Source: Catenuloplanes indicus (GTDB taxonomy: Bacteria > Actinomycetota > Actinomycetes > Mycobacteriales > Micromonosporaceae). Taken from it: a stretch of DNA of 64,000 nucleotides. Under the pieces are notes generated by a model. The model worked only from the letters and a program-made list of their open reading frames with translations. It did no database searches and was not told where the DNA came from. The stretch is taken from the NCBI RefSeq assembly GCF_030813715.1, contig NZ_JAUSUZ010000001.1, positions 868,001 to 932,000 on the forward strand, written 5' to 3'. Made by a program: the position numbers and the translations under genes. Below are positions 3,855 to 26,927 of the stretch, one piece after another; position 1 is the first letter of the stretch, and the number at the start of each line of letters is the position of its first letter.

Positions 3855-4020
3855 CAGGCTGGCCCGCAGGTCATGAGTGCCGGCGCGCAGCCCCGGCTCG
3901 CCGGCCGGCCCCCTCGTCCCGCGGTCGGGGTGCCCCGGGTGATGACCGGGCGCGGCGTGGTCGCGGCGGGCGGCACCGCGAACCGGAGGCACGGCGCTTC
4001 TACCCCCTCGCGCTCGGCGC

Positions 4021-4110
4021 GCGACCTCGCGCGACCCGGCCCCGCAAGCCTCGGCGCCGCACGACCTGGCGCCACGCGACCCGGCGCCGCATCACCCGGC
4101 GCCGCACGAC
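4021..4110. repeat. Degenerate 15-bp tandem repeat, six units
   Basis: Six consecutive 15-bp units run from 4021 to 4110. The last four (4051, 4066, 4081, 4096) are close to CCGGCGCCGCACGAC; the first two are more diverged. The array sits in the 310-bp gap between lysR (stop 3854) and the minus-strand gene ending at 4165. A plus-strand frame across it would give PGAAR-like pentapeptides, but that frame has no ribosome-binding site or recognisable domain. The rest of the gap (3855-4020 and 4111-4164) shows nothing else. Confidence 0.75.
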
Positions 4111-4164
4111 CCCCGGCCCCGTGCGGCGCGCGGCGATCCGTGCGACCGGCGCGGCGTGACGGGG

Positions 4165-5469
4165 TCAGACGCTGAGTTCGACGAGGACGGCGTCCTCGAC
4201 CGTGACGCGGTAGGCGCCCTTGCCGCCGAGCTGGAACGTGACCTCGCCGGTCGCCTGGCTGGTCGCGGCCGCGGTGAACGTGTAGCTCAGCCGGCAGGGC
4301 ACCGGCCCGACCGGCACGTTCCTGGTGAGGGACTCGCGGTACTCCGGTGATTCGTTGTCCTGGATGCGGCGCAGGATGTCCCTCCGGCGGTCGCCGGACA
4401 CCGTGAAGTCGAACCGGTACCGGTGATCCTTGATGATCGTGATGCCGCTCCGGATTCCCATCAGGTCGGACGGCGTGACGGAATCCGCGGGCACGGCGGC
4501 CACGAAACCGGTGTCGGTGGGCGACAGGTCGAGGTGTGGATTGTTCGGCCACCAGTTCGGCGACACCGTCTCCGGCACCCCGGGCGGCCCCATCACCATC
4601 GCGCCGGACGGCTTCGCCGCGCCGGGCGGCAAACACGCCGGCCTGACCGGGCCCGCCTGGTCGGTTGCGGTCGCCGGAGCCGTCGCGCTCGCCGGGATAT
4701 CGCTCGCGCCGCGAACGGTCCGCGGCTCCGCCAGCCGGGAGCCGGTCACGCCCACGACCACCCCCGTCGCGAAGATCGCCACCAGCGCGGCCCACGACGC
4801 CGGCCCGGGCCGCAGCCGCGCCCACCGCGACGACGCTCCGGACCCCGGCGGATCCGGCGGCCTCGCGGCTATCGGAACCATGACATACCGCGAGCCGGCG
4901 CTCAGCCCTTCGGAGTCCCACCCCGCGGCGCCCGGCCCGGCCGCGCCGAGCCCATCCGCGTCCAGCTCTTCCGCGTCCACGCCGTGCTGGCCCCGCCCGT
5001 GCGCGCCCCATGGAAGCAGCGCGGCGGCCGGGCGCGGGACCGGCAGGAGATCCGGTGCCCGCCGGTCCGCCTCGTGCGCGGCCGCCAGCAGCGCGTTCAG
5101 GTAGTCGACCGCCACGGTCAGCCGCCGGGCGTCATCGGCGCCGAACGGCACGCCGGCGATCCGGTGCGAGGCCCGCGCCACCGCCACCACAGTCACCGGA
5201 TCGGTGAGATGCCGCAGGTCACCGGCCAGCACACCGGCCACGTCGTCCTTGTCGACGGCCCGGCCGGGCGCCATCCGGTAGGTGCGGATCACCTCGGCCA
5301 GGTGCCGCAGCGACGCGGCCCGGCGCCGCCGGCGCGGCGGCGGTGATCCGCGGGGCGGCGAGTAGGTGCCGTCCCGGCCGGCCCGCGCCGCGGCCGCGTT
5401 CACCGCCGAGGCGATCAGCGCGGCCGCGTCGTCGACCTGCTTCCACCACGGTGCCGGTCGTGCCGCCAC
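4165..5469 (-). CDS. Membrane-anchored protein with cytoplasmic helical domain, function unknown
   Basis: This 434-aa protein starts with GTG at 5469, preceded by a good GAGGGGG ribosome-binding site. Residues 1-130 are helical ([47 protein letters not shown]) and may be a small helix-turn-helix-like or interaction domain. An Ala/Gly-rich linker follows, then one transmembrane helix at about 223-243 ([17 protein letters not shown]), and a C-terminal exported domain of about 190 aa ending in beta-like segments ([15 protein letters not shown]). The in-out topology resembles actinobacterial one-pass sensor proteins, but I do not recognise the family. It has no close operon partner. Confidence 0.7.
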
Positions 5470-5607
5470 GGGCGCCCCCTCACATCGGCCGACGTGATTA
5501 TATTTCAGGCACGCCGGCCCGGTCCGGATCGATCACCAGCAACCAACCTCCACGAAGCCGGCCAGACAGGCCGGCGCGATATGTGGCCCAGCCCACTGAA
5601 CCCTCAC

Positions 5608-5635
5608 GGAAACGTACGACCGCACGTACGTTTCC
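5608..5635. promoter_or_regulatory. Perfect 11-bp inverted repeat, 6-bp spacer
   Basis: GGAAACGTACG, six bases, then CGTACGTTTCC. The dyad is perfect over 22 paired bases and lies 4 bp before the possible start of a small ORF at 5640 and 118 bp before the P-loop gene. No T-run follows on either strand, so an operator is more likely than a terminator. The rest of the 5470-5752 gap shows nothing else recognisable. Confidence 0.55.
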
Positions 5636-5639
5636 CCTC

Positions 5640-5756
5640 GTGAACCGCGCCGATACGCCGCTGATCAGCTGCCGCCACGTCGCCGGTGGGCCCGCCGAGG
5701 AGGCCGACCGGGTGGTCGCCCGCATCATGCCCACCCGGTTCACCGTGCGCCGATGA
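5640..5756 (+). CDS. Possible 38-aa leader ORF coupled to the P-loop gene
   Basis: GTG at 5640 opens a 38-codon frame (VNRADTPLISCRHVAGG...) whose TGA (5754-5756) overlaps the ATG of the next gene as ATGA, the usual sign of translational coupling. Codons are G/C-ending as in genes. It starts directly after the inverted repeat at 5608-5635. Upstream there is only a weak ribosome-binding site. It could be a real small protein, a leader peptide or a remnant of a longer gene. Confidence 0.3.
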   Translation: MNRADTPLISCRHVAGGPAEEADRVVARIMPTRFTVRR

Positions 5757-6412
5757 CCATGGACCAGCGCCCCGGCGCCGCACCACCCGCCCGGACGGCC
5801 GTGCGCCCGGATCACCGGATCGGCGCCGCGCCGCGCGGCGGGACCGCCGTGGACCGGGCGAGTGCGCACGCCGGCGGCCTCGTCGCATGGGTGCGCAGCC
5901 TGCCGGCGACCGCCGGCCGTACTCGCGTGGTGTGCGTCGAAGGGCGGTCCGGCGCCGGGAAGACCGGCCTGGCCGGCGCGCTCGCGGCGGATCTCGGCGC
6001 GACGCTGATCCGGATGGACGACCTCTACCCCGGCTGGGACGGGCTGCTCGGCGGCGTCGACGCGCTGCGGGAGTGGATCCTGGCGCCGCTCGCGGCCGGG
6101 CAGCCGGCCCGGTGGCGGCGCTGGGACTGGGCGGCGGGCGCGTACCGCGACTGGGAGCCGCTGCACGCCGGTGACGACCTGGTCGTCGAGGGTGTCGGTT
6201 GCGGGGCGGGCGCGCTCCGGCCGTACCGCAGCGGCCTGGTCTGGATCGAGGTGCCCGAAGCGGAACGCAAGCGGCGGGCGCTGGCCCGCGACGGCGAGAC
6301 CTACGCTCCGCACTGGGAGCGGTGGGCACGCCAGGAGGACGCGTTCTACGCCGCGAATCAGGTCCGCGAACACGCGGATAAGATCATTGACAATTCCGGG
6401 GGTACGGCATGA
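5753..6412 (+). CDS. Uridine-kinase-like P-loop NTPase
   Basis: This 219-aa protein has a Walker A motif GRSGAGKTG at about residues 64-72 and an acidic RMDDLYPGWDGL segment at about 87-98, the layout of small nucleoside/uridine-kinase-like P-loop enzymes. A later VWIEVPEAERKRRALARDGE matches the lid region. The first 40 residues are low-complexity and may be untranslated: a start near 5850 (VDRASAHAGG) is possible, but ATG 5753 overlaps the preceding small ORF and is kept. Substrate cannot be told from the sequence. Confidence 0.75.
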   Translation: MTMDQRPGAAPPARTAVRPDHRIGAAPRGGTAVDRASAHAGGLVAWVRSLPATAGRTRVVCVEGRSGAGKTGLAGALAADLGATLIRMDDLYPGWDGLLGGVDALREWILAPLAAGQPARWRRWDWAAGAYRDWEPLHAGDDLVVEGVGCGAGALRPYRSGLVWIEVPEAERKRRALARDGETYAPHWERWARQEDAFYAANQVREHADKIIDNSGGTA

Positions 6413-6728
6413 GCAGGCAGGTACGACCGGACGGTCTCCGGCAGTGCACCGTCGGGCACACCGCGACCGGATCGGGGCGGCACCCGGACTCGCAGGCGCA
6501 CCGCCACCGGCGTCCCTCCTGATGGGTGGACGCGCGGCCCGGCCGGCACCTGCCGCCGCTCCTGGCCCGGCCGCCGCCTGGCGGCGACCCACGTCCGTTC
6601 CGCACGGCGACGTCTTCGGCACCGGAATCGGCGTGGCCGGACGGGGCCGGCCGCCGCCCCCACGGTGACGCCGTCGCCCCGCCCGGCCGGTCAGCCGTCG
6701 CGCCGCCGGGTGCGCGCCCGGCCGGTCG
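6413..6728. other. 316-bp gap, nothing recognised
   Basis: This lies between convergent genes. Frames are open on both strands only because of base composition. I see no gene-like protein, promoter or long dyad. Confidence 0.5.
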
Positions 6729-7604
6729 TCAGAGGAGCGGCTGGCCGGTGCCGAAGAGGCCGGGGAGGCCGCCGGTGTGCAGGAAGACCACGCGGTCACC
6801 GGCGCCGGACGTCGCCGCGAGCCCGGCCATCGCCCGGCCGGTGTAGATCGGGTCGAGGAACAGCCCTTCGGTGCGGGCCGCCAGCCGCAGCGCGGCTCGC
6901 ACCTCGTCCGTCACCGTGGCGTAGCCGGCACCGATCCGCTCCCGGTCGATGCGCGGCTCACCGGGATCCGCCGGCAGCAGCGCCCGTACCGCGGCGGCCG
7001 GATCGGGCAGCGCGCCGGTGTCCACACCGGCCACCCGGGCCGCGCCGAGGCCGAGCACCAGACCGGCCATCGTGGCCCCGGAGCCGACCGCGACCACCAC
7101 CCGGTCGAAGTCCACTCGCGCGGTCAGCTCGCGGGCGCACTCGGCATAGGCGTGCACGGACGTGCGCGACGACCCGCCGAACGGGATCAGGTGTGCGCCC
7201 GGCCGCGCCGCCGCCTCCGCCGCGGCGACGTCGCCGGGTGGCCGGTCACCGGCCCAGATGATCTCCGCACCGGCGAGCCGGTCCAGCAGCAGGTTGCCGG
7301 TCTCCCGGGCCGGGCCGTCGCCGGCCAGCACCAGCACGCAGCCGAGCCCGAGGCGGGCCGCCACCGCGGCGGTCGCGCGCGCGTGGTTGGACTGCGGCGC
7401 CCCGGTCGTCACCAGCGTCCGCGCGCCCGCGGCCAGTGCCTCCGCCGCGGTCCAGCGCAGCTTGCGGGCCTTGTTGCCGCCGCCACCGGCCCCGATCAGG
7501 TCGTCGCGCTTGATCCACAGCCGGTCCAGGCCGAGCGCCTCGGCCAGGCGCGGCGCGTCCTCCAGCGGCGTAGGGAACGTACCGAGGTCCAGCGGCTCGA
7601 TCAT
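6729..7604 (-). CDS. D-cysteine desulfhydrase / ACC deaminase-family PLP enzyme
   Basis: This 291-aa protein has the fold-type II PLP lysine in GGGNKARKLRW (about Lys45) and WIKRDDL just before it. TGAPQSNHARATAAVAARLG and the glycine-rich GSGATMAGLVLG phosphate loop also match the family that includes D-cysteine desulfhydrase and 1-aminocyclopropane-1-carboxylate deaminase. Start ATG 7604 gives MIEPLDLG; an in-frame ATG three codons upstream (7613) is an alternative. It should carry out PLP-dependent elimination on a small amino acid; which one is not decided by the sequence. It is divergent from the CBS gene. Confidence 0.87.
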   Translation of the reverse strand: MIEPLDLGTFPTPLEDAPRLAEALGLDRLWIKRDDLIGAGGGGNKARKLRWTAAEALAAGARTLVTTGAPQSNHARATAAVAARLGLGCVLVLAGDGPARETGNLLLDRLAGAEIIWAGDRPPGDVAAAEAAARPGAHLIPFGGSSRTSVHAYAECARELTARVDFDRVVVAVGSGATMAGLVLGLGAARVAGVDTGALPDPAAAVRALLPADPGEPRIDRERIGAGYATVTDEVRAALRLAARTEGLFLDPIYTGRAMAGLAATSGAGDRVVFLHTGGLPGLFGTGQPLL

Positions 7605-7691
7605 GACACGCATTATCACCGCCGGAGGTCTTCCGGCCCTGCCGGGCGGGACCTCAACGGCCGTACCGTCGAGGTCCTGGAGGTGGTTTCG

Positions 7692-8369
7692 ATGAGGAAC
7701 TGGCAGGTCGGCGACGTCATGACCGAGGACGTCGCGACGGTCACGGCGGACACCCCGTACCGTGCGATCGTGGATGTCCTGATGCGGCGCCGGGTGAGTG
7801 CGGTCCCGGTCGTGGACGAGATGGGCCGCGCGGTCGGCGTGGTGTCCGAGACCGATCTGCTTCACAAGATCGAATTCGCCGGTACGGACGAGGCGCCGCG
7901 GCTGTTCGAGAGCCGCCGTAACCGCCGGGCCCGCGTCAAGGCCGACGCCGTGGTCGCCGCGGACCTGATGTCCACACCGGCGAGCACCGCGCTGGCCACC
8001 ACGTCGATCACCGCCGCCGCCCGCCGGATGGACGCCGGCCGCGTCAAGCGCCTCCCGGTCGTCGACGAGCTTGGCCGCGTCATCGGCATCGTCACCCGCT
8101 CCGACCTGCTCAAGACCCACCTGCGTCCGGACGAGGCGATCCGCGTCGACATCGAGAGCGGCATCCTGCACCGCATCCTGCTGCTCGACCCCGGCACGAT
8201 CACGGTGACGGTCACGAACGGCGCGGTCACGCTGACCGGCACGACCGACCGCCGCTCCTCCGCCGACCTGGCCGCCCGCCTCACCCGCCAGGTGCCCGGC
8301 GTCGTCGAGGTCATCGACACCCTGACATTCGACTTCGACGACACGGCGATCCTCTACCCCGCGTTCTGA
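7692..8369 (+). CDS. CBS-pair and BON-domain protein
   Basis: This 225-aa protein has two CBS motifs: residues 1-60 (VGDVMTEDVATVTADTPY ... VGVVSETDLL) and 90-140 (AADLMSTPAS ... GIVTRSDLLK). A BON-like domain follows at about 150-218 (TVTVTNGAVTLTGTTDRRSS ... VPGVVEVIDTL). CBS pairs bind adenosyl nucleotides and BON domains often contact membranes or other proteins. Proteins of this build are common in actinobacterial stress and dormancy regions. ATG 7692 has GAGGTGG upstream. It is a stand-alone gene. Confidence 0.9.
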   Translation: MRNWQVGDVMTEDVATVTADTPYRAIVDVLMRRRVSAVPVVDEMGRAVGVVSETDLLHKIEFAGTDEAPRLFESRRNRRARVKADAVVAADLMSTPASTALATTSITAAARRMDAGRVKRLPVVDELGRVIGIVTRSDLLKTHLRPDEAIRVDIESGILHRILLLDPGTITVTVTNGAVTLTGTTDRRSSADLAARLTRQVPGVVEVIDTLTFDFDDTAILYPAF

Positions 8370-8507
8370 GGGCATACCGCGAGGCCGACGAGAGCGAACA
8401 GCCGCTCCGGCGCGGTGGCGGTCACGAGGCACCACCGTGGTCGATGGATACCGATGTTGAGGTCTCCCGTCTACATTGAGATTTCGACCTCGACCGCGGG
8501 GGTTCCG

Positions 8508-9198
8508 ATGTCGCAGCAGGTGTCCCGGCGTGGCCTTCTTCGCGCCACCGCCGCCGGTGGCTTCGTGACCGCTGTCCCCACCGCACCGGCGCGCGCCCCG
8601 GTGCCGTACGCCGTGCGGGAGCTGGAGGAGAGGATCCGCGCCGGGATGGAGCGGTACGGGATCGCCGGTGCCGCGCTCGGCCTGTGGTACCGCGGCCGCG
8701 GAGTACGTGCGGGGCTTCGGCGTCACCCGCACGGACGCGCCGCGGGACGTGGACGGTGACACCGTCTTCCGGGTCGCGTCGACCACCAAGACGTTCACCG
8801 GCGCGGCGATCATGCGGCTCGCGGAACAGCGCCGGATCAATCTCGACGGTACGGTCCGCGACTACCTTCCCGGCTTCCACACCGCGGACGCCGCCGCGTC
8901 GGCCCGGGTCACGGTGCGGCAGGCACTGAACCACACCGGCGGCTGGCTGGGCGACCTGGTGATGCTGTCCGGCGGCCAGGCGGTCGACGGTTTCGCGTTC
9001 TACCGCAGGGACTACGTCGTCGACCTGCCGCTGTCCGGCGGCACCGAGGAGGGCATCCGGGCGAACTTCGTCCGCGCCCCGGACGGCTCCGTCCGGTGGT
9101 TCCGCATCGGCGGCCGCCTCTACCGCCGCGGTGTGCCCACCACCGCCGCCGACGCCGGCCGGGCCGTACCCTTCCACCGGCGGCCGAAGCTGTCCTGA
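8508..9198 (+). pseudogene. Broken beta-lactamase-like serine hydrolase
   Basis: The N-terminus (ATG 8508, MSQQVSRRGLLRATAAGG) is a Tat signal, and the frame continues to LGLWYRGRG near 8698. There the homologous reading moves to another frame (EYVRGFGVTRTDAP), consistent with one extra G near 8700. The second frame holds the catalytic S-x-x-K (VASTTKTFTG) and LNHTGGWLGD. It then passes directly to a C-terminal-looking segment (VRWFRIGGRLYRR) with the middle missing. Class C beta-lactamase/esterase-type proteins normally have 350-480 aa; only about 230 codons remain. The frameshift plus internal deletion makes this a pseudogene. A sequencing error alone would not explain the missing middle. 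Confidence 0.75.
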
Positions 9199-9338
9199 AT
9201 CACGATGGAGGCGTACCGGATCCGGGGTTCCGCCCGACGCCCCTACCCGGCTGCCCGGTGGCGCGGCTCATCCCCGGACCACGCCGCCGACCACCGCGTG
9301 CCTCCGCACGGCGGAACCCGGCGGCGGGCCCGGGGACG

Positions 9339-9373
9339 CCCACGGGGCGGGCCGTGGTGGCCCGCCCCGCGGG
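9339..9373 (-). terminator. Strong hairpin after metQ
   Basis: Two 15-base arms (9339-9353 and 9359-9373) pair with one mismatch around a 5-base loop. They lie just past the metQ stop (9380), so this is the likely end of the metNIQ transcript. There is no clear U-run, as is common in high-GC actinobacteria. Confidence 0.65.
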
Positions 9374-9379
9374 CAAGGG

Positions 9380-10201
9380 TCAGAACGCGGCCAGGACCGA
9401 GCCGTTGTACTTCTGGGCGATGAAGTCCTTGACCTGCTGGGAGTGGAGGAGCTTCTCGAGCTTGACGATGCGCTCGTCGGTCTCCTCGCCGGTGCGGACC
9501 ACGACCAGGTTCGCGTACGGGTTGTTCTCGCCGGTCTCCAGCGCGAGCGCGTCGGTGGCCGGGGACAGGCCGGTCTCGATCGCGTAGTTGCCGTTGATGA
9601 CGGAGACGGCGGTGTCCTCGAGGCTGCGCGGCAGCTGGGCGGCCTCCAGCGCCTCGAACTTGAGGTTCTTCGGGTTACCGGTGATGTCGGCTTCGGTGGC
9701 CTTGACGCCGACACCGTCCTTCAGCGTGATCAGGCCGTTGGTGGCGAGCAGGCTGAGCGCGCGGCCGGAGTTGGACGGGTCGTTCGGGATCGCGACCACG
9801 CCGCCGTCCGGGACCTCGGTGAGCGCCTTGACCGTCTTGGAGTAGACGCCGAGCGGCTCGATGTGCACCGGCTTGAGCGGCGTGAACGTGTAGCCCTTGG
9901 ACGCGATCTCCTCCTCCAGGTACGGGATGTGCTGGAAGTAGTTCGCGTCCAGCTGCTCGTCCTGGAGCGCGGTGTTCGGCTGGATGTAGTCGCTGAACTC
10001 GACGATCTCGATCTTCAGGCCCTCGGCGGCCGCCAGGTTGTCGCTGACGTACTTGAGGATCTCGCCGTGCGGGACGGGACTGACGCCGATCTTGAGCGTG
10101 TCGCTCGCGCTGCCGCCTTCCGCGCCGGAGTCGTTGCCGCAGGCGGCCACGCCGATCAGGAGCGAGGCGGCCGCGGTGAGCGCGACGAGGGTACGACGCA
10201 T
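9380..10201 (-). CDS. metQ: Methionine ABC transporter substrate-binding lipoprotein MetQ
   Basis: This 273-aa protein has a lipoprotein signal with lipobox (LIGVAACG, Cys about 21). The mature part matches NlpA/MetQ: LKIGVSPVPHGEILKYV, VEFSDYIQPNTALQDEQLDANYFQHIPYL cut by region, and VAIPNDPSNSGRAL. It captures D/L-methionine outside the membrane for MetNI. It is last in the minus-strand order metN-metI-metQ. The 110-bp gap before it contains an AT-rich palindrome, so it may also have its own promoter. GGAAGG precedes the ATG. Confidence 0.95.
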   Translation of the reverse strand: MRRTLVALTAAASLLIGVAACGNDSGAEGGSASDTLKIGVSPVPHGEILKYVSDNLAAAEGLKIEIVEFSDYIQPNTALQDEQLDANYFQHIPYLEEEIASKGYTFTPLKPVHIEPLGVYSKTVKALTEVPDGGVVAIPNDPSNSGRALSLLATNGLITLKDGVGVKATEADITGNPKNLKFEALEAAQLPRSLEDTAVSVINGNYAIETGLSPATDALALETGENNPYANLVVVRTGEETDERIVKLEKLLHSQQVKDFIAQKYNGSVLAAF

Positions 10202-10228
10202 GACTGAACTACCTTCCGTTGTACGGAT

Positions 10229-10242
10229 TTTTATCGATAAAA
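10229..10242. promoter_or_regulatory. 14-bp AT-rich palindrome upstream of metQ
   Basis: TTTTATCGATAAAA is a perfect palindrome 28 bp upstream of the metQ ATG, in the metI-metQ gap, and is conspicuous in a region of about 70% GC. It could be an operator or the core of an internal metQ promoter. The regulator is unknown. Confidence 0.5.
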
Positions 10243-10311
10243 CAGCCCGGTAGGGGCGGCATCGGGCGGCCCGGGCCGATCCGCGGGGAGACGGCCGGCC
10301 CCGGGCCGGGC

Positions 10312-10968
10312 TCAGCGGTGGGACAGCCGGCGCACCACGAGGTCGCCGAGGCTCTGCACGGCCTGCACGAACAGCACCAGCACCACCACGGTCGCGATCA
10401 TCATCTCGGTCTCGAAGCGCTGGTACCCGTACCGAATGGCCAGGTCGCCGAGGCCGCCACCGCCGACGGTCCCGGCCATCGCGGAATAGCCGACCAGCGC
10501 GATGACCGTGATGGTCAGTCCGGCCGCCAGGCCGGGCCGCGCCTCGCGCAGCAGCACCTTGCGGACGATCTGCCGGCGCGACGCACCGGCCGCGATCGCG
10601 GCGTTGACCACGTCGCGCGGCACCTCACGGATCGCGGTCTCCACGATCCGGGCGAAGAACGGGATCGCGCCGATGGTCAGCGGCACGATCGCGGCGTCCG
10701 TGCCGATCGTGGTGCCGACCACCGCGCGGGTGAACGGGATGACCGCGACCAGCAGGATGATGAACGGCAGCGACCGGCCCACGTTGACGATCAGGCCGAG
10801 CACCAGGTTCACCGCGGGCGCGGCGAGCAGGCCGCCACGCTCGGTCAACACCAGCAGCACGCCGATCAGCAGCCCGCCGAGCGCGGTGATCGCCGTGGAG
10901 ATCCCCACCATGTAGGCGGTCTCCCACAACCCCGCACCGAGCAACGGCCAGATGTCTTCCCACGTCAC
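10312..10968 (-). CDS. metI: Methionine ABC transporter permease MetI
   Basis: This 218-aa membrane protein begins with GTG (MTWEDIWPLLGAGLWETAYM), typical of MetI. Five hydrophobic helices are visible, and the EAA loop that contacts MetN is present (VNAAIAAGASRRQIVRKVLL, about 125-145). The terminal helices contain GGGGLGDLAIRYGYQ, a MetI hallmark. The GTG overlaps the metN stop by 4 bp. Confidence 0.95.
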   Translation of the reverse strand: MTWEDIWPLLGAGLWETAYMVGISTAITALGGLLIGVLLVLTERGGLLAAPAVNLVLGLIVNVGRSLPFIILLVAVIPFTRAVVGTTIGTDAAIVPLTIGAIPFFARIVETAIREVPRDVVNAAIAAGASRRQIVRKVLLREARPGLAAGLTITVIALVGYSAMAGTVGGGGLGDLAIRYGYQRFETEMMIATVVVLVLFVQAVQSLGDLVVRRLSHR

Positions 10969-12023
10969 GACCGGTCTCCCGTCTTGTCGACAACGGCGGC
11001 CGCGGCACCGTCCGGCCCGGCACCGTCCGGGCCCGCACCGGTGCGCGGCACCTCGGCCGGGATGCCGGTCTCGCGCAGCCAGGTCAACGCGCCACGGTTG
11101 TGCTCCGCGGTGCCCGGCAGTGCCAGCCGCAGCCGGCCCGCGCGCGTCGCGGCCAGTTCCTCCACAGTGCCGCCGAGGATGCGCACGTCCACCTCGAAGC
11201 GCCGGGCAAGTTCCGCGATCAGCGGCCGGTCCGCGTGGTCGCCGCTGACCGTAACGTCCACCACGGTCTGCCCCGGCAGGTCCGGCGCCGGCCCGAGCCG
11301 CAGCAGTTCGGCCGCCAGCTCCGAGCCCGGCCGGGCCAGGATCTCGGCGATCCGCCCGGACTCGGTGAACCGCCCGTCCCGCATGATCGCGGCCGAGTGG
11401 CAGATCCGCTTCACCACGTCCATCTCGTGCGTGATCAGCAGGATCGTCAGCCCGAGCCGCCGGTTCAGGTCGGCCAGCAGCGCCAGGATCGAGTGCGTGG
11501 TCTCCGGGTCGAGCGCCGAGGTGGCTTCGTCGGAGAGCAGTACCTTCGGGTCGCCGGCCAGCGCCCGCGCGATGCCGACCCGCTGCTTCTGACCGCCGGA
11601 CAGCTGCGCCGGGTACGCCCCCGCGCGGCCCTCCAGCCCGACCAGCTCCAGCAGCTCCGCCACCCGCGCGGCCCGCCGTGCCCGCGGCACGCCGGTCACC
11701 TCCAGCGGGAACGCCACGTTACCGGCCACGGTCCGCGAGCTGAGCAGCGCGAAGTGCTGGTGGATCATGCCGATTCGCTGCCGTTCCCGGCGCAGCCGCC
11801 GCTCCGGCAGCGCGGTCAGCTCGACCCCACCCACGGTGACGGTGCCGGAGTCCGGGCGTTCCAGCAGGTTCACGCTGCGCAGCAGCGTGCTCTTGCCGGC
11901 GCCGCTGCGACCGAGCACACCGTAGATCTCGCCCTCGGCGACGTCCAGCGTGACGCCGTCGAGCGCGGTCACGGCCCGGCCGCGCCCGCGGTAGACCTTG
12001 CGCAGATCCCTGATGCTGATCAC
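10965..12023 (-). CDS. metN: Methionine ABC transporter ATPase MetN
   Basis: This 352-aa protein has Walker A GRSGAGKS (about 38-45), signature LSGGQKQRVGIARAL, Walker B VLLSDEATSALDP and an H-loop (LLITHEMD). The C-terminal part (about 265-340: VVDVTVSGDHADRPLIAELAR) is a NIL/ACT-like methionine-sensing domain that inhibits transport when methionine is high. GTG 12023 gives MISIRDLRKVY; upstream in-frame codons look non-coding. It is the first gene of metN-metI-metQ. I looked for a SAM riboswitch or MetJ-like boxes upstream and found none. Confidence 0.95.
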   Translation of the reverse strand: MISIRDLRKVYRGRGRAVTALDGVTLDVAEGEIYGVLGRSGAGKSTLLRSVNLLERPDSGTVTVGGVELTALPERRLRRERQRIGMIHQHFALLSSRTVAGNVAFPLEVTGVPRARRAARVAELLELVGLEGRAGAYPAQLSGGQKQRVGIARALAGDPKVLLSDEATSALDPETTHSILALLADLNRRLGLTILLITHEMDVVKRICHSAAIMRDGRFTESGRIAEILARPGSELAAELLRLGPAPDLPGQTVVDVTVSGDHADRPLIAELARRFEVDVRILGGTVEELAATRAGRLRLALPGTAEHNRGALTWLRETGIPAEVPRTGAGPDGAGPDGAAAAVVDKTGDRS

Positions 12024-13999: not shown

Positions 14000-14782
14000 T
14001 CAGGACCCGAGGCGCCGGTACCGGCGGACCGCGAGCGGGGCGAAGACCGCGATGAGCAGCAGCGGCCAGCCGATCGCGAGCGGCAGCGCATGGCCGGCCG
14101 CCCAGGAGTCACCGCCCACGCCGGGGTTGCCGAACAGATCCCGGGCCGCCGCGACGGTCGCGGAAAGCGGGTTCCACTGGGCGACCACGCCGACCCAGGA
14201 CGGCATCAGCTCCGGAGCCACGAACACGTTGGAGAGCGCGGTCAGCGGGAACGCCAGCGGGAAGACGATCACGGAGACCGTGTCCGGGTTCGGCACCAGG
14301 CTGCCCAGCCAGATGCCGACCCAGGTGAGTGCCACCCGCAGCAACAGGATCAGGGCGACGCCGGCCAGTGCGAGCCCGATCCCCCGGTGCGCCTGCCAGC
14401 CGACCAGCAGGCCGCAGACGATCAGTACGGACATCTCCAGCAGCGCGCGGACCAGGTCGGCGGCGCTGCGCCCGGCCATCAGCGCGGATCGCGCGGTCGG
14501 CATCGACCGGAACCGGTCGACCACGCCCCGGTTGATGTCGACCGCGACCGCGGTGGCGGTCGCACCCAGCCCGTACAGCATGGTCATCACGAACACGCCG
14601 GGGATCAGGAACTCGCGGTACGTGTCGCCGGAGACCGCCATGCCGGCGCCGAACACGTAGCCGAAGACCAGCGTGAACATGATCGGCAGGGTGAAGTAGA
14701 GGACGATCTCCTCCGGTGCGCGGGCCACGTGCGTGAGGTAGCGGCCGGTCATCACGCGGGCGTCGCGGAGAGCGTGGTTCAT
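14000..14782 (-). CDS. ABC-2-type permease (DrrB-like)
   Basis: This 260-aa integral membrane protein starts at ATG 14782 (MNHALRDARVMTGRYLTHV). Six hydrophobic helices are visible, beginning with IVLYFTLPIMFTLVFGYVFG, and the family segment PLTALSNVFVAPELMPSW lies near 195-215. DrrB-like permeases pair with a DrrA ATPase to export drugs or lipids. The start overlaps the ATPase stop (ATGA). It is the last gene of a SARP-ATPase-permease unit, so it probably exports a compound or confers self-resistance. Confidence 0.9.
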   Translation of the reverse strand: MNHALRDARVMTGRYLTHVARAPEEIVLYFTLPIMFTLVFGYVFGAGMAVSGDTYREFLIPGVFVMTMLYGLGATATAVAVDINRGVVDRFRSMPTARSALMAGRSAADLVRALLEMSVLIVCGLLVGWQAHRGIGLALAGVALILLLRVALTWVGIWLGSLVPNPDTVSVIVFPLAFPLTALSNVFVAPELMPSWVGVVAQWNPLSATVAAARDLFGNPGVGGDSWAAGHALPLAIGWPLLLIAVFAPLAVRRYRRLGS

Positions 14783-15714
14783 GCCTGGTGTCCCGTCAGG
14801 TGGAGGAAGACCTCGTCGAGCGTGGGCCGGTGGACGCCGAGGTCCACCACCGTGATGCCGGCGTCCTGCAGCGCGCGGGCCGCCTCGATCAGCGCGCCCA
14901 CCCGGTCCGTGACCGGCACCCGGATCCGGCGCGTGTCCGGGTCCACGTCCGGGTCCGCCGCACCGAGGATCGCCGCCGCCTTGGCCAGCACGTCCGCGTC
15001 GCGGATCACCACCTCGAGGCGGTCCGCGCCGATCACCGACTTGAGCGCGTCCGGCGTACCGCCCGCGACCACCCGGCCCGCGTCGATCACCGAGATGTGG
15101 TCGGCGAGCTGGTCCGCCTCCTCCAGGTACTGCGTGGTCAGCAACACCGTGGTGCCGTCCGCGACCAGGTCCCGGACGGCCTGCCAGACCTGGTTGCGGC
15201 TGCGCGGGTCCAGGCCGGTGGTCGGCTCGTCCAGGAACAGCACGGACGGGCGGCGGATCAGGCTCGCGGCCAGGTCCAGCCGGCGCTGCATACCGCCGGA
15301 GTACGTCTGCGCGGACCGGTGCGCCGCATCCGTCAGGCCGAATCGTTCCAGCAGCTCGTCGGCGCGGCGGCGGGCGGCCTGGGCGCTCAGGTGGTGCAGG
15401 CGGCCGAACAGCACCAGGTTCTGCCGGCCGCTGAGCAGGCCGTCCACCGCGGCGTACTGGCCGGTCAGCGCGATCCGCTCGCGTACCGTGCCGGGCTGCT
15501 TCGTCACGTCGGCACCGGCCACCACCGCACGGCCGGCGTCGAAGCGCAGCAGCGTGGCCAGGATGCGCACCGCCGTGGTCTTGCCGGCGCCGTTCGGGCC
15601 GAGCAGCCCGTGCACGGTGCCGGCCGGGACGTCGAGATGGAAGCCGTTCAGCGCGGTCGTCCGCGCGTAGCGTTTGTGCAGGTCCTCGGCGAGGATCCCG
15701 GGTGTCGTGGTCAT
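14779..15714 (-). CDS. ABC transporter ATPase (DrrA-like)
   Basis: This 311-aa protein starts at ATG 15714 (MTTTPGILAEDLHKRY). It has Walker A GPNGAGKTT, Q-loop GQYAAVDGLLSGRQN (the YAAVD form typical of DrrA/daunorubicin-resistance ATPases), signature YSGGMQRRLD, Walker B LFLDEPTTGLDP and H-loop TTQYLEEAD. The C-terminal domain (about 220-311) ends in RPTLDEVFLHLTGH, as in DrrA. The gene overlaps the permease by 4 bp and follows the SARP gene by 42 bp. Confidence 0.93.
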   Translation of the reverse strand: MTTTPGILAEDLHKRYARTTALNGFHLDVPAGTVHGLLGPNGAGKTTAVRILATLLRFDAGRAVVAGADVTKQPGTVRERIALTGQYAAVDGLLSGRQNLVLFGRLHHLSAQAARRRADELLERFGLTDAAHRSAQTYSGGMQRRLDLAASLIRRPSVLFLDEPTTGLDPRSRNQVWQAVRDLVADGTTVLLTTQYLEEADQLADHISVIDAGRVVAGGTPDALKSVIGADRLEVVIRDADVLAKAAAILGAADPDVDPDTRRIRVPVTDRVGALIEAARALQDAGITVVDLGVHRPTLDEVFLHLTGHQA

Positions 15715-15756
15715 GCCGGTCAGCGTGACCGGGCGCGCGCACCGGGCGCGCACGGA

Positions 15757-20837: not shown

Positions 20838-23800
20838 TCACTCCAGCATCCGTTGCAGTTCCCCGATCCACCTCTGGCGGGATTGGTCCGGCACGTCCGC
20901 TTGCATCGCGTGGACCGTCACGAGGACAGCGCGGGCGCTGCGCCGCCGCACATACGTGCCCACCTGCGGTGACCAGCCACTGGTGACCGCATGGACCGCG
21001 GCGTCGCCGGCGTGCCGGATCTCGTCCGGGTCCTCGCCGAGTACCGCCGCCAGCTGGAACCGGCTGATCGCGGCGGCTATCGAGTAGGCGCGGTCACCGT
21101 CGGCCACGAAGGTGGTGGTCGCGTCCGCGAAGCGCGCCATCAGCGGCTGCACCGCGTGCATCAGCGTCTCGTTGACCCGGTCACGCACCAAGTTGCTCTG
21201 CCGGGCCAACCCGTCGGCGTGGGTGTGCTGCCAGGAGGTCATCGTGCGCGTGGGGTGACCCGGATGGATGCGATAGTGCCAGTAGGGGTCGACCAGTGGT
21301 GGCAGCGACGAGCGGTCGAGCAGCACGACGAGATCACGGCGGTCGCCGAGCCAGACCGCTCGCGTCTGCAGCGTGAAGACCACGGCCCACCAGGCGACTG
21401 TCCCTAACATCGCCTGCCAGAGCAACGCGTGCCGTCGCCAGCTCAGCGCCAGGTCAACAGCACCCGGAAACAGCTCACTCGCCCGCACCCCGCCGTTCAG
21501 CACGACCGCGAGCAGCAGCAGATTCAAGTCATACACCGCGTACCGTTCCGGCACCGGCAGCGTCACGGGTACATAGTCGCGCACGTCCTGATCGGTAGGC
21601 CGCCGGTCGAGCCGCTGGAACAACGTAACCGGCAGACTCCGCACCGCGTCCGCACGGTGTTGGGTAGCGAGACCGGCCACGAACGCCAGAACGGACTCAC
21701 GGTTGGTCAGCGGCGCGAAGGACAACAGTGCGTGCAGCTGATGGTCCCGGCAGCCCGTCGAGCCGAACACCGCACCAGCCGCGTCCATCTCCTCCCTCGC
21801 GAGTTGCTCGATCAGGCGCACGGTCAGCCGCGCGATCAGATACTCACCGAACGTGGCGTGAAGAAACTCGTAGGTCCGCAGCCGGGCACCGGCCTGATTC
21901 GCCTCGCTGCGCTGCATGAAGAAGAAGCGCCCGACCAACTGCTCCGCAGCACCGAGTTTCCGCCGGAAGTCCCCGGCCAGCTCGACACGGCGATCCGGCA
22001 TCAACGCGCGCAGATCCGCGTCCAGCTCGTGCTCGGCGATCCACTGGCGATTCCGGTTGAACATGCCGAACGCGGCCACGGAGAGGCGGAGCAGTTCCGC
22101 CTCGACCAGCGCGGCGAGGGTCACCTCGTCCGCCGGCTCGTGCGTCTTGCTCACCTCACGCCGAGCGAACGTGGTGAGCAGGCGCTCGTAAAGGGCGCCC
22201 TCGTCAAGGGCCTCGCCGGCGGCGCGGAGCGCGTTCGCGTCCGCGTCGTAGAGCGCCAGCATCATCAGTAGCAGCGGTTGTCCGGCCAGCTGGGGCTGCC
22301 GCAACACCACCTCCGCGTCGAGCACGGCAAGCCCGCGGCCGTGCAGCGCAGCGGTGTTCGCCGTGTTCCAGATGGCGAGCCACCGCTCGACATGCGGCCG
22401 ACGGAACGGCTCCAAGCGCAGGCACAGTGTGCCAGCCGGCGGGCGGGCCCGGTCGGCGACCGCGGTACGGCTGGTGACCAGCACCACGACCGGCCGGCCA
22501 AGGTCGGCCTCGCGTCGTTGGAACGCGGCGACCTTGCTTAGGTAGTCGGACTGGCTGACGCCGGTGGCTTGCAGCAACTCGTCGAAGCCGTCGATCAGCA
22601 CCACCGGCAGCGCCGGCCCCGCCGCACGGACCAGCGCGGGCCAGGAGAGTGTTTCGCCGGTGGCGGCACGGACCGCGTACTCGATCTGGTCCTGCACGTC
22701 CGCCTCGGCCGGGACCTCTCGCAGCACCACGCGGACGGGCAGGAAGTGGCGCGCATCGAGACGCGCCGCGAGGATCCGGGTAAGTACCGACTTCCCGGCC
22801 CCCGGCTGGCCCAGCACCAACAGCGGCGACTCCGTGGCTCCTGGCGTGGTCAGGTGGCTCGCCAGGAACTCGGCAAGGTCGGATCGGGCCGTCACCTGCT
22901 CCCACCAAGCCTCCTCGGCCGGCGACCCGGCCGCGGCCACCTGATCCAGCCAAGCCTCGCCGGCTGAGGACGCGGTCGAATCGACTGTGCGGATCCGGAA
23001 GTCCGGGTCGACGTAGCCGAGCGCGAGCGTGGGGATGGTGAGGTCGCCGGAGACGGCACCATCGGAGAGGATCGGCCGATCCAGCGCGGCTTGCCAGGCG
23101 CGGACGAGGCTGGCGGCCACGTCGCCGGGTGTGTGCTCCGAGGCGATCGGCGCGAGCACCGTCTCGATCCGGGACAACGCGGTACCGATCTCCCGTTGCC
23201 GCGTCTCAGCGGTCCAGAAGCCGAACTCGGGTGCCTCCACGACGAGCCGACGATGAAGGTCGGCATAGCGCTGTTCCGCGGCCTTCGGTAGATAGGCGAA
23301 CGCACGGTCGGATGCACGACGGTCGGCTCCATTCAGGTTCTCGAAGACCCTGAGGTTCCGTACGAACTCGATGAGATTGAGCGCACCGTGGCTGTACCAG
23401 AGGAACAAAGCGGCCTCGAACTCCGCGTGGTCGAGATGCGGAACGGGTATCGGCACGGCGCCCGCCACTACGTGACGGACACCGTCGTTCGCTTCGAGGA
23501 TGCGACTCCGCTCCTCCGCGGTGAGCCGCAGGTCGCGTGGGTCGAACGGCAGGCCGATGTCGTCCAGCGCCTCGAAGAACGCGGTCACCACGATGATCGT
23601 GTGTGCGGCCTGTAGGCGCTGTGTCCGGTCGTACCGTGAATAGCCCTTGATCCTGTCCCGGAGCCCGGTGATCAGCTGGCTGCCGAGCCGGACCGCCTCA
23701 CCCTTGGCGTCGAACAGGCTGATCGCCAGCTCGCTGCCGCCGCCCGTGGCCGCCAGCAGCAGCCCGCCCAGGGCCCGGTCGAGCGCCGTGACCAGCGGTG

Positions 23801-23852
23801 ACGACCCGCCGAGCAGCTTCACCGCATCCGCGTAACCCAGCTGTGTGGACAT
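20838..23852 (-). CDS. NACHT-domain STAND ATPase with N-terminal helical domain
   Basis: This protein has 1004 aa from ATG 23852 (MSTQLGYADAVKLLGG). The first 250 residues are a helical domain (LGYADAVKLLGG; KGYSRYDRTQRLQAAHTIIVV) like those that precede NACHT modules in actinobacteria. The NACHT ATPase has Walker A LGQPGAGKSVLTR (about 343-355), Walker B VVLIDGFDELLQ (about 417-428) and an arginine-rich sensor (VLVTSRTAV). The C-terminal 450 aa are helical, with hydrophobic stretches near 780-830 (LLLLAVVLNGG; AWWAVVFTLQTRAVW) and no clear LRR, TPR or nuclease effector. Bacterial NACHT proteins include antiphage defence proteins and regulators; which applies here is not decided. Divergent from the lanthipeptide cassette (134-bp gap). 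Confidence 0.88.
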   Translation of the reverse strand: MSTQLGYADAVKLLGGSSPLVTALDRALGGLLLAATGGGSELAISLFDAKGEAVRLGSQLITGLRDRIKGYSRYDRTQRLQAAHTIIVVTAFFEALDDIGLPFDPRDLRLTAEERSRILEANDGVRHVVAGAVPIPVPHLDHAEFEAALFLWYSHGALNLIEFVRNLRVFENLNGADRRASDRAFAYLPKAAEQRYADLHRRLVVEAPEFGFWTAETRQREIGTALSRIETVLAPIASEHTPGDVAASLVRAWQAALDRPILSDGAVSGDLTIPTLALGYVDPDFRIRTVDSTASSAGEAWLDQVAAAGSPAEEAWWEQVTARSDLAEFLASHLTTPGATESPLLVLGQPGAGKSVLTRILAARLDARHFLPVRVVLREVPAEADVQDQIEYAVRAATGETLSWPALVRAAGPALPVVLIDGFDELLQATGVSQSDYLSKVAAFQRREADLGRPVVVLVTSRTAVADRARPPAGTLCLRLEPFRRPHVERWLAIWNTANTAALHGRGLAVLDAEVVLRQPQLAGQPLLLMMLALYDADANALRAAGEALDEGALYERLLTTFARREVSKTHEPADEVTLAALVEAELLRLSVAAFGMFNRNRQWIAEHELDADLRALMPDRRVELAGDFRRKLGAAEQLVGRFFFMQRSEANQAGARLRTYEFLHATFGEYLIARLTVRLIEQLAREEMDAAGAVFGSTGCRDHQLHALLSFAPLTNRESVLAFVAGLATQHRADAVRSLPVTLFQRLDRRPTDQDVRDYVPVTLPVPERYAVYDLNLLLLAVVLNGGVRASELFPGAVDLALSWRRHALLWQAMLGTVAWWAVVFTLQTRAVWLGDRRDLVVLLDRSSLPPLVDPYWHYRIHPGHPTRTMTSWQHTHADGLARQSNLVRDRVNETLMHAVQPLMARFADATTTFVADGDRAYSIAAAISRFQLAAVLGEDPDEIRHAGDAAVHAVTSGWSPQVGTYVRRRSARAVLVTVHAMQADVPDQSRQRWIGELQRMLE

Positions 23853-23986: not shown

Positions 23987-24178
23987 ATGTCTGTCGCACT
24001 GCTGTCCGCCCTGGACGAGCTCACGCCGCGGGCACTCGGCGAGCTGGCCGGCGAGCCGGAGGTGGCGTTCGGCGACGTTCAGGAGGCGTTGCTGTCCGCG
24101 GATCGCTGCCCGGCCACCTGCGGGCCGTGCAGTAGGGGCACCGAGTTCTGCGACGCCACCGGCCGCACGCTCTCCTGA
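23987..24178 (+). CDS. Putative lanthipeptide precursor, four-Cys core
   Basis: This 63-aa peptide starts at ATG 23987, with GGAGAGGGG upstream. The leader is acidic and leucine-rich (ALLSALDELTPRALGEL, then FGDVQEALLS). The C-terminal part from residue 41 is cysteine-rich, with Cys41, 45, 48 and 55 and Ser/Thr at 44, 49, 52, 58, 61 and 63. The gene ends 2 bp before a class IV lanthionine synthetase, which makes it the obvious substrate. It has no GG or GA cleavage motif and does not resemble the class IV precursors I know (venezuelin-type). Several Thr/Ser lie after, not before, their nearest Cys, so reversed ring direction or partial thiol retention is possible. Confidence 0.75.
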   Translation: MSVALLSALDELTPRALGELAGEPEVAFGDVQEALLSADRCPATCGPCSRGTEFCDATGRTLS

Positions 24179-24180
24179 CG

Positions 24181-26640
24181 ATGACCGGCTGGTTGTCCGC
24201 ACCGTACGTCCGGGAGCAGGTCGCCGGTGCGTACGACCACGAGTACACCGTCGCCGGCACGCCGGAGTGGACGTATGCCCGGCGGGACGTGCCGCTTCCC
24301 GCGCACGGCTGGAAGCTGCACGTCTCGGCGCGGGCCGGGGACCTGCCGGACCTGGCCGCGGTGCTGGTGCCGTACCTGCTGGCGGAGCGGCACGACTTCA
24401 AGCTCGCGGCCGGCACCGCCGCGCTCGCCGCGATGAACGACGGCTACGAGCACCCGGCCACGGTCGGCAAGGCGTTCACCGTCTATCCGGAGCCGGACCG
24501 GGTGCGCACGCTGGGCCTGGCGCTGGCCCGGATGCTGCGCGGCCGGATCGGGCCCCGTGTGCTCAGCGACCGGCGTGTCGCCGCCGACGCGCCGGTCTAT
24601 TACCGGTATGGGCCGTTCGTGAACCAGTGGTTCGCTGGTGCGCGCGGCGTGCTGGCCGTGCAGATCCCCGGCCCGGGCGACGCCCGCTTCGACGCGATCG
24701 CCACGCTGCACTACCGGCAGCCGGACTGGGTCAGCGATCCGTTCGGGCCCGCACCGGCCGCGCCGCAGCTGCTCGGCGGCCGGTACACCGTGGACGACGG
24801 CATCATCCGGTCCGCGCACGGTGACGTGCTCCGCGGCCGGGACACCGCGACCGGCGACCGGGTGGTGATCAAGCAGGCCCGGGCGTACGTCGGCGAGGCG
24901 CGTCTGCGGCTGCGCAACGAACGCCGTGTGCTCGGCGCGCTGGACGGTGTCGGCGGCGTGCCGCGCTTCCTCGACCACTTCGCGCACGGCGACGACGAGT
25001 TCCTGGTCAGTACGGATCTCGGCGGCGACAATCTGCAGACCCGGATCATGACCGGCGGTGCGCTCGGCCTGTCCCCCGCGTTCACCCGGCTCGCCCACGA
25101 GCTGGCCGGGATCGTGTGCGCGCTGCACGACCGCGACGTGATCATGCGGGACGTCACGCCGCGCAACGTGGTCGGCACCGGCCTGGTCGACTTCGGCATC
25201 GCCGCGCTGCACGGGCTGCATCCGCGCGGCGGCACGCACGGCTTCGCCCCGTCCCGGCAGATGCGCGGCGCACCGGCCGTGCCGGAGGACGACGCGCACG
25301 CGCTCGGCATGACGCTCGCGTTCGCCGCGACCGGCCTGGTACCGGTGATCGTGGAGACCGAGGACGGGCTGTCCGCCGCGCGCATGCGCTCGTCGGTGAC
25401 CGCGCTGCTCGGGCCGTCCGCCGGCGTCCTGCTCGACCTGATCAGCGGTGACGGACCGGTCGCGCTCGCGGCGCTGCGCGCGCTCGCCGCCGGCTCGCTC
25501 TCACTCACGGGACCCCGCCGGGGGTACGGCCGGCGACCGTGCCCGGACGTACCCGCGCTGCGCCGTCACGTTCTCCGGGTCGTCTGCGAGCAGGCGCCGG
25601 GAAGGGTGCTCGACGCACCGGAGTCGGCGTACGCGTCGTTCGACGCCACGCTCTACACCGGCAGCGCCGGACTGGGCCTGGAGCTGCTGCATCATCGGGA
25701 GTTCCCGGCCGTACCCCCGCTGCTGGACAGGCTTTTCGAGCATGCGGGGCGAGCCGCCCGGCGCTTCCCGCGGCCGCCCGGTCTCCACCTCGGCTCCACC
25801 GGCACGCTGCTGTTCCGCGCGCGGATGGGTGACCCGGACGCGGCCGCGCCGGCCACGCCGTTCGACGCGGCCGATCCGCACGACGACATCATCAGCGGCA
25901 TCGCCGGGTGCGGTATCGGGCATCTGCTGCGCGGCGACCACGCCGCCGCCCGCGCCTGCGTGGACGCGCTGCTGCGGCCCGGGCCGATGCGGCTGTCCGT
26001 GACCGACACGCCGTCGCCGAGCACCGAGCCCGCGTCCAGCTACGCGCACGGCACCGCCGGGGTGCTCGATCTGCTGCTGGAGTACGTGGCCGCGACCGGC
26101 GACCCGGCGGTGCGCACCGAGGCCCGGCACCGTGCGGGCGTGCTGGCGCACACCGCGGCGGACCTGATCGTCCGGGCCCGCCGCCGCGGTGCCGTGCCGC
26201 TCGCGGTCTCCTGGTGCCAGGGCCTGGCCGGGATCGGCCGCGCGCTGCTGCACGCCACCACGGTGCTGGGTGCGGGCGAACGAGGCGACGCGCGTTTCGC
26301 GGAGTTGGCGCTGGCGGCCGCGGAGGTCTGCGCCGAGTGGGTGCCGCGCATGCAGAATCCGGGACAGTGCTGCGGCCTGGCCGGTGTCGGCACCTATCTG
26401 ATCGACTGTGCCCGGCACACCGGCGACGGCCGCTGGCTCGACGCGGCCCACGACGTGGCCCGCCAGCTGATGCGCCGCAGCCACGGCCCGGACGACGCGC
26501 CCAGGTTCGTCGATCTGGACCGGCAGGACGCGCCGCTGTCCTGGTCCGCCGGCTACACCGGCATCCTGACCTTCCTCCGCCGCCTCGACGACCCGGCCGC
26601 ACCGGGCCTGCTGGAACCGTCAGCTCTCCTGGCCGAGTAG
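24181..26640 (+). CDS. lanL: Class IV lanthionine synthetase LanL (lyase-kinase-cyclase)
   Basis: This 819-aa protein has three domains in order. The phospho-Ser/Thr lyase domain (about 1-195) includes VYYRYGPFVNQWF near 140-152. The Ser/Thr kinase domain (about 200-450) has Lys231 (VVIKQA), catalytic Asp324 and Asn329 (IMRDVTPRNVV) and the DFG motif at Asp337 (LVDFGIAA). The LanC-like cyclase (about 490-819) has WCQG (Cys679) and CCG (Cys730-731). The three Cys could bind zinc as Cys-Cys-Cys, instead of Cys-Cys-His as in most LanC enzymes. Zinc ligands separate LanL from class III LanKC. It phosphorylates, dehydrates and cyclises the adjacent precursor. No exporter or protease gene lies beside it. 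The 3' end overlaps the convergent small gene by 21 bp. Confidence 0.92.
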   Translation: MTGWLSAPYVREQVAGAYDHEYTVAGTPEWTYARRDVPLPAHGWKLHVSARAGDLPDLAAVLVPYLLAERHDFKLAAGTAALAAMNDGYEHPATVGKAFTVYPEPDRVRTLGLALARMLRGRIGPRVLSDRRVAADAPVYYRYGPFVNQWFAGARGVLAVQIPGPGDARFDAIATLHYRQPDWVSDPFGPAPAAPQLLGGRYTVDDGIIRSAHGDVLRGRDTATGDRVVIKQARAYVGEARLRLRNERRVLGALDGVGGVPRFLDHFAHGDDEFLVSTDLGGDNLQTRIMTGGALGLSPAFTRLAHELAGIVCALHDRDVIMRDVTPRNVVGTGLVDFGIAALHGLHPRGGTHGFAPSRQMRGAPAVPEDDAHALGMTLAFAATGLVPVIVETEDGLSAARMRSSVTALLGPSAGVLLDLISGDGPVALAALRALAAGSLSLTGPRRGYGRRPCPDVPALRRHVLRVVCEQAPGRVLDAPESAYASFDATLYTGSAGLGLELLHHREFPAVPPLLDRLFEHAGRAARRFPRPPGLHLGSTGTLLFRARMGDPDAAAPATPFDAADPHDDIISGIAGCGIGHLLRGDHAAARACVDALLRPGPMRLSVTDTPSPSTEPASSYAHGTAGVLDLLLEYVAATGDPAVRTEARHRAGVLAHTAADLIVRARRRGAVPLAVSWCQGLAGIGRALLHATTVLGAGERGDARFAELALAAAEVCAEWVPRMQNPGQCCGLAGVGTYLIDCARHTGDGRWLDAAHDVARQLMRRSHGPDDAPRFVDLDRQDAPLSWSAGYTGILTFLRRLDDPAAPGLLEPSALLAE

Positions 26641-26802
26641 TTTCCGCAGCTCCGCGTGCATGCTGACGACCTCGATGCGCGCGTCCAGGAAGCCGCGCCG
26701 GTAGTCCGCGCCGGTCTCCGGGTGTTCGGCCAGGTCGGCGTCCCGGCGCCCGTCCAGCGCGTCGACGCGGCCGGCGTTGTAGGCCAGCAACGCGTCCTCC
26801 AT
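26620..26802 (-). CDS. Small charged protein, function unknown
   Basis: This 60-aa protein starts at ATG 26802 with an excellent GAGGAGGA ribosome-binding site. It is a predicted helical hairpin: MEDALLAYNAGRVDAL and GADYRRGFLDARIEVV. Codon use is gene-like. It is convergent with, and overlaps, the 3' end of lanL by 21 bp. No family is recognised, and a link to the lanthipeptide is not evident. Confidence 0.7.
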   Translation of the reverse strand: MEDALLAYNAGRVDALDGRRDADLAEHPETGADYRRGFLDARIEVVSMHAELRKLLGQES

Positions 26803-26927
26803 GGCGATCCTCCTCGTGACGACGACGGCAGTCATTCTGCCCGCCCCGATCAAGCTCGCCACCAGGCATTTCGGCGTTCCGGGCAGCACTCGGACGCGTC
26901 ACCGCTGTCGGACTCCCGACACCGCCC

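Follow-up and report, generated by a model that had tools for sequence, protein, structure and literature searches.

The window, a 64,000-nt stretch of a Catenuloplanes indicus contig, holds two adjoining genes that very probably form a cassette for the modification of an L-CCC lanthipeptide (PMC11251773), one encoding a small Cys-rich precursor and the other a lyase-kinase-cyclase, LanL. The cassette is real and intact in the window, and its enzyme type is named but thinly studied. As a sequence-only reading of this DNA had described, a lanA-type ORF of 63 aa (MSVALLSALDELTPRALGELAGEPEVAFGDVQEALLSADRCPATCGPCSRGTEFCDATGRTLS; 23987-24178, plus strand, ATG start, TGA stop included) ends 2 bp before the start of a complete lanL (24181-26640, plus strand, 819 aa; assigned by Pfam, NCBIfam, alignment and tree). 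The leader would span about residues 1-38 (23987-24100) and the core residues 39-63 (24101-24175), with Cys at 41, 45, 48 and 55. From residue 41 on there are six Ser/Thr, at 44, 49, 52, 58, 61 and 63, the last three lying beyond the last Cys, and here too the earlier positions were accurate.

Two flanking genes were considered as parts of the cassette and rejected. A NACHT-type ATPase gene with an NNH7 domain by Pfam (20841-23852, minus strand, 1004 aa) is divergent from lanA at a distance of 134 bp; it adjoins the cassette in the Catenuloplanes genome G003 too, and is absent from that place in G004. A 71-aa ORF overlapping the end of lanL (26620-26835) has no Pfam match, and an ORF like it adjoins lanL in G003 and G004 and was not seen in G002.

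The sequence-only reading had staked its pairing of the two genes on conservation of the ORF beside lanL, and the ORF is kept there in four of five Catenuloplanes genomes, with identities of 100 (the window's own genome, G000, 9.2 Mb), 94 (G004), 90 (G003) and 70% (G002) and with all four Cys retained in the latter three. It also lies beside lanL in G229 and G242. The precursor is under purifying selection (dN/dS 0.11-0.52 in six pairs; 0.40-0.43 in three pairs for lanL), and its place beside lanL across the genus together with these ratios identifies the ORF as a real gene. Searches of 354 genomes of the wider family gave LanL matches in 11 (E <= 1e-60) and precursor matches in 12 (E <= 0.01); in six of the latter (G000, G002, G003, G004, G229 and G242) the match is the precursor beside lanL, and the other six matches are weak (E 0.001-0.009). 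In the fifth genus genome, G001, neither an orthologous lanL (E <= 1e-60) nor a precursor match was found. Neither Pfam nor NCBIfam gave a match to the precursor itself at E <= 1. The G004 lanL (L038, 6623-8361, minus strand) lacks 734 bp corresponding to window positions 24547-25280, so that the lyase has lost its end, the kinase is mostly gone and the reading frame is shifted; with an intact, 94% identical precursor still beside it, this locus is a natural case of enzyme loss.

LanL combines three domains in one protein, identified by Pfam as RamC_N (lyase, residues 16-194, 24226-24762), Pkinase (residues 213-396, 24817-25368) and LANC_like (cyclase, residues 489-806, 25645-26598). In an alignment of nine LanLs the catalytic residues of the first two domains are invariant, namely K45, H47, K74 and Y102 of the lyase and K231, E247, D324, N329 and D337 of the kinase, the latter five with the roles usual in kinases. 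The lyase roles were assigned by spacing against K51, H53, R83 and Y108 of VenL as given in PMC2843593. The three-Cys motif noticed earlier is present and equally invariant: C679 in WCQG (codon 26215-26217) and C730 and C731 in CCG (codons 26368-26373), presumed by position to be the first, second and third zinc ligands, align with CQG and CCG of PDB 8CAR.

These residues bear on the class of the enzyme. Class III cyclases lack zinc ligands, according to PMC7268733, whereas LanL has the presumed ligand residues and scores 253 bits against the class III model NF038151 (cut-off 575), so that it does not belong with the class III LanKC enzymes. It appears to share with class IV the zinc ligands that class III lacks, but it has CCG rather than CHG, not the Cys-Cys-His triad, and it scores 591 bits against the class IV model NF038150, below the curated cut-off of 650 that its relatives from G229 (667) and G002 (659) exceed. 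No class II dehydratase domain (DUF4135) is among its Pfam hits at E <= 1. In the scheme of PMC11251773, as its main text gives it, type IV corresponds to L-CCH, and LanL, with a predicted lyase/kinase dehydratase and a predicted Cys-Cys-Cys triad, is by its residues an L-CCC enzyme. That main text names the L-CCC synthetase with eight predicted peptides, mentions three CCC subclades, and does not contain the words LanL or class IV.

Phylogenetic analysis places the window's LanL apart from the CHG enzymes. In a tree of 37 rows, 15 CCG LanLs and the LanL of L064 form one clade with support of 100/100; 11 CHG rows and 10 further rows, class III-like ones among them, fall outside it, and LanL does not branch within the CHG LanLs. 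The deeper order, that is, whether the CCG clade stands nearer to class III or to CHG class IV, is weak (92/87, midpoint root), and six rows have an odd letter composition and two CHG rows long branches. The LanL of L064 (G622) lacks both WCxG and CCG in spite of its place in the clade, and the stretch examined there has no leader-family precursor.

At E <= 1e-140 a CCG profile matched 6 of 394 genomes of the class, the window's own included, 31 of 180 genomes in the G755 family and 29 of 240 in the G793 family, these two families having been picked since a member already had a match. The two families yielded 55 new loci, referred to below as the later loci. Of the 72 clade loci, 68 show the CCG motif (15 tree rows and 53 of the 55 later loci), and the other four (L038, L046, L142 and L144) are partial or broken frames. 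The best solved-structure match to the clade alignment, PDB 8CAR/8CAV (751 bits, nearly full length), is an 865-aa 'Serine/threonine protein kinase' that aligns end to end and keeps CQG (Cys729) and CCG (Cys775 and Cys776, numbers counted from the alignment), with Phe instead of Trp before CQG. We considered SgbL as the identity of this protein and rejected it: the SgbL cyclase occupies residues 549-899 (PMC9889658), beyond the 865 aa of 8CAR.

The precursors upstream of related LanLs share a leader motif, L-x-PR-x-x-G, with an F further on. Across 11 precursors the columns L9, L12, P14, R15, G18 and F28 are invariant, making seven invariant leader columns with the start Met, along with two Cys. 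A profile built from 51 precursors matched (E <= 0.01) in 69 of the 72 clade loci, within the stretch examined though not always adjoining lanL, the misses being L046, L162 and L166; among the loci outside its training set it matched 18 of 21, four of which are closely related to training rows. One of the 33 control loci (25 class IV survey loci without CCG and eight others) also matched, marginally (E 0.0064). A regular-expression scan of about 1.5 kb on either flank found the motif in five of five CCG loci against none of 25 others, and it was absent from all 11 CHG loci scanned. The sequence-only reading had called the precursor atypical of class IV; it is indeed unlike those of the CHG loci sampled, but within its own clade it is a normal member of the leader family. 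Mean identity among 13 members (78 pairs) is 0.38 in the leader (shuffled 0.20) and 0.30 in the core (shuffled 0.24), and cores across the clade vary almost to chance level. In L164 and L171 two leader-family ORFs lie beside one LanL, L133 has a single-Cys core, and in L146 (G1253) the leader-family precursor upstream of a CCG LanL has GDSTWP-like repeats and no Cys, and thioethers are therefore impossible there. Identity of the window's precursor with SflA was considered and set aside on the strength of one motif: PDLLK, which PMC10885120 gives as the recognised sequence of SflA, could not be spotted in any of the leaders inspected by eye.

We suggest that the leader, through its L-x-PR-x-x-G motif, would recruit LanL, whose kinase would phosphorylate Ser/Thr of the core and whose lyase would eliminate the phosphate to give Dha or Dhb, and that the zinc cyclase would then add Cys 41, 45, 48 and 55 to dehydro residues. 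For one of the rings we favour C41-P-A-T44 (24107-24118), which would join a Cys to a dehydro residue on its C-terminal side and so have inverted polarity; the next could be T52-C55 or C55-T58. The main alternative for C41 is an ordinary ring with S37. In the six cores of this type (type A), aligned with one gap placed by hand, the four Cys and Ser/Thr 44, 49, 52, 58 and 61 are kept in all and residue 63 in four. S37, four residues before C41, is likewise kept in all six precursors, and therefore an ordinary S37-C41 ring is possible and an inverted ring at C41 is not obligatory. Beyond the genus, DRCPxT or NRCPxT is found again in G229, G242, G755, L148, L149 and L151.

Across the clade, an excess of Ser/Thr three residues after Cys hints at rings of inverted polarity. 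The first ten cores, some of them interrelated, have 16 such residues against 6.8 expected from shuffles (P 0.0002), or 12 against 4.8 with one core per subfamily (P 0.0004). The later loci give a fairer test because the C-x-x-[ST] test was devised after the first cores had been seen: in seven later, unlike cores, hand-picked as one per core type (the types of L145, L146, L148 and L171, which came up afterwards, are not among them), the excess is weaker, 9 against 5.3 (P 0.049), and Ser/Thr three residues before Cys, the ordinary spacing, are in excess too (10 against 5.8, P 0.031). For 14 subfamily cores, grouped by hand by the author, the counts are 21 against 10.2 after Cys (P 0.0001) and 15 against 10.8 before it (P 0.089). 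All these P values are uncorrected, with 16 offsets examined in the first test and nine in the second. The unit C-x-x-T-C is present in seven of ten cores, some of them related (shuffle mean 0.33; none of 20,000 shuffles reached seven). Seven of 12 precursors have no Ser/Thr within six residues before the first Cys, and in all 12 the core Ser/Thr are at least as many as the Cys. C-x-x-[ST] is entirely missing from five cores (G328, G1011, G1298, G1163 and G1103).

Rings that start at an N-terminal Cys have a precedent in venezuelin, the class IV product of VenL and VenA: according to PMC2843593, three of its four proposed rings link a Cys to a Dhx further towards the C terminus (Cys34-Dhb39, Cys45-Dha49 and Cys32-Dhb43). 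The same text gives that system three enzyme domains, four core Cys and no protease in the cluster, as in the window, and, unlike the window's cassette, ABC exporter genes. VenL would stand with the CHG enzymes, which lie outside the CCG clade, an assignment that follows from the equation of type IV with L-CCH in the main text of PMC11251773. The class II enzyme ProcM, as described in the accessible parts of PMC10027976 and PMC12328550, resembles the clade in its three-Cys zinc motif (CCG), conserved leader and diverse cores, and differs from LanL in its dehydratase. Many precursors in one genome are served by ProcM, whereas the window's own genome gave one precursor match at E <= 0.01, a search that distant leaders would escape, and so a ProcM-like service to many precursors finds no support here.

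Other fates of the core must be weighed against this scheme. It is unlikely that LanL dehydrates the core and cyclises only some of the Cys, leaving C-x3-C-x2-C for disulfides or metal binding, which would make the product a small redox or metal-binding peptide: the Cys spacing, with Pro and Gly around it, is conserved in the six type-A cores, and Ser/Thr outnumber Cys, so that dehydro residues would be left over anyway, but LanL keeps its presumed zinc ligands, and the quite different Cys spacings and numbers of other clade subfamilies do not fit one metal site. The labionin motif of class III has the spacing S/T-x-x-T-x-x-C, which is found in the four Catenuloplanes precursors, in the window as S49-R-G-T52-E-F-C55. 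A labionin-like or other carbon crosslink there is nevertheless very improbable, as G229 and G242 are one residue longer in that stretch, G755 lacks it, and the zinc ligands presumed in the LanL cyclase are missing from class III cyclases (PMC7268733).

We also consider it quite improbable that the cassette is decaying and makes no product in its own genome. The broken lanL of G004, the lack of lanL and precursor matches in G001 and the lack of a linked half-ABC transporter gene in the window would agree with decay, but both genes in the window are open, LanL retains its catalytic residues, and each gene has a dN/dS under 1. A broader proposal, that the CCG LanLs make up a lanthipeptide class of their own with an inverted ring code, in which Cys would join a downstream Ser/Thr in small C-x-x-Dhx rings and cores would diversify across species under a constant leader and enzyme, is tentative and rather doubtful, being weakened by the conserved S37 of the type-A precursors and by the five cores without C-x-x-[ST]. 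If true, it would make the clade a kinase-lyase counterpart, independently reached, of the three-Cys zinc site and diverse cores of the prochlorosin synthetases.

The sequence-only reading ranked the cassette as a candidate for an undescribed product, and the product does look undescribed, although the CCG enzyme type is already in print as L-CCC (PMC11251773, main text) and is matched by PDB 8CAR/8CAV. In the literature searched, whose scope excluded supplements and most subscription papers, we recognised no paper on a product of the clade; nor, within the same scope, do the leader family and the spacing pattern seem to have been described. Class IV is called the least studied lanthipeptide group in PMC10676316, which lists venezuelin-like peptides, and PMC7268733 counts 815 clusters and 401 precursors of class IV. 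The clade thus offers a named enzyme type with no product recognised in the literature searched, a leader motif by which its small precursors can be found, and cores in 14 subfamilies. The leader rule linking 69 of 72 loci and the testable proposal on ring direction are the most useful outcomes. If the C-x-x-S/T pattern does reflect inverted rings, it would offer a way to test directly what determines the direction of a ring, and also whether a three-Cys zinc site accompanies core diversity in two unrelated synthetase classes.

Leader removal and export would depend on genes elsewhere in the genome. Directly beside the cassette neither an exporter nor a protease gene was recognised, by eye or by Pfam on four neighbours, as had been reported earlier; about 8 kb away (14000-15753) is a pair resembling an ABC permease and ATPase (by eye; a 30% ATPase match). 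A half-ABC transporter gene is found near lanL in 10 of 36 wide loci (G002, G229, G242, G142, G793, G640, G1184, G1172, G1286 and G1361), L046 not being among the 36, and 26 lack one, including the window, G003 and G004; a two-piece match in G1355 and the ATPase-like matches of several other loci were not counted. The proteins are 617-659 aa in the six that were called and aligned over 609-623 aa in G1184, G1172, G1286 and G1361; the three scanned with Pfam each have an ABC ATPase domain. The window's own genome has an unlinked half-ABC homologue, 73% identical to the lanL-linked one of G002 and about 6.7 Mb away on the contig. Five matches to M1 peptidases, two of which are strong, also occur in that genome, and PMC10885120 describes M1 proteases encoded outside the cluster that process leaders of classes III and IV. 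Because linked half-ABC genes are mostly lacking, an unlinked homologue exists, off-cluster leader proteases are documented and M1 matches are present, the missing exporter says little. A link of the unlinked gene to the peptide is only possible, since all five genus genomes carry a copy (63-73%), among them G001, which lacks this lanL. With low confidence, we expect the peptide to be secreted, for signalling or interference, and not to stay inside the cell.

The unlinked half-ABC gene (L109, G000:C1:7634000-7652000, 8197-11742, minus strand) adjoins GNAT-like and radical-SAM-like genes (by eye), perhaps as part of another peptide cluster. The same genome also has an apparent class I lanthipeptide cluster (L116, G000:C1:3993000-4009000, 3872-8450), with genes for an 82-aa Cys-rich peptide and a 1020-aa LanB-like protein (both by eye) and a 393-aa LanC-like protein (Pfam).
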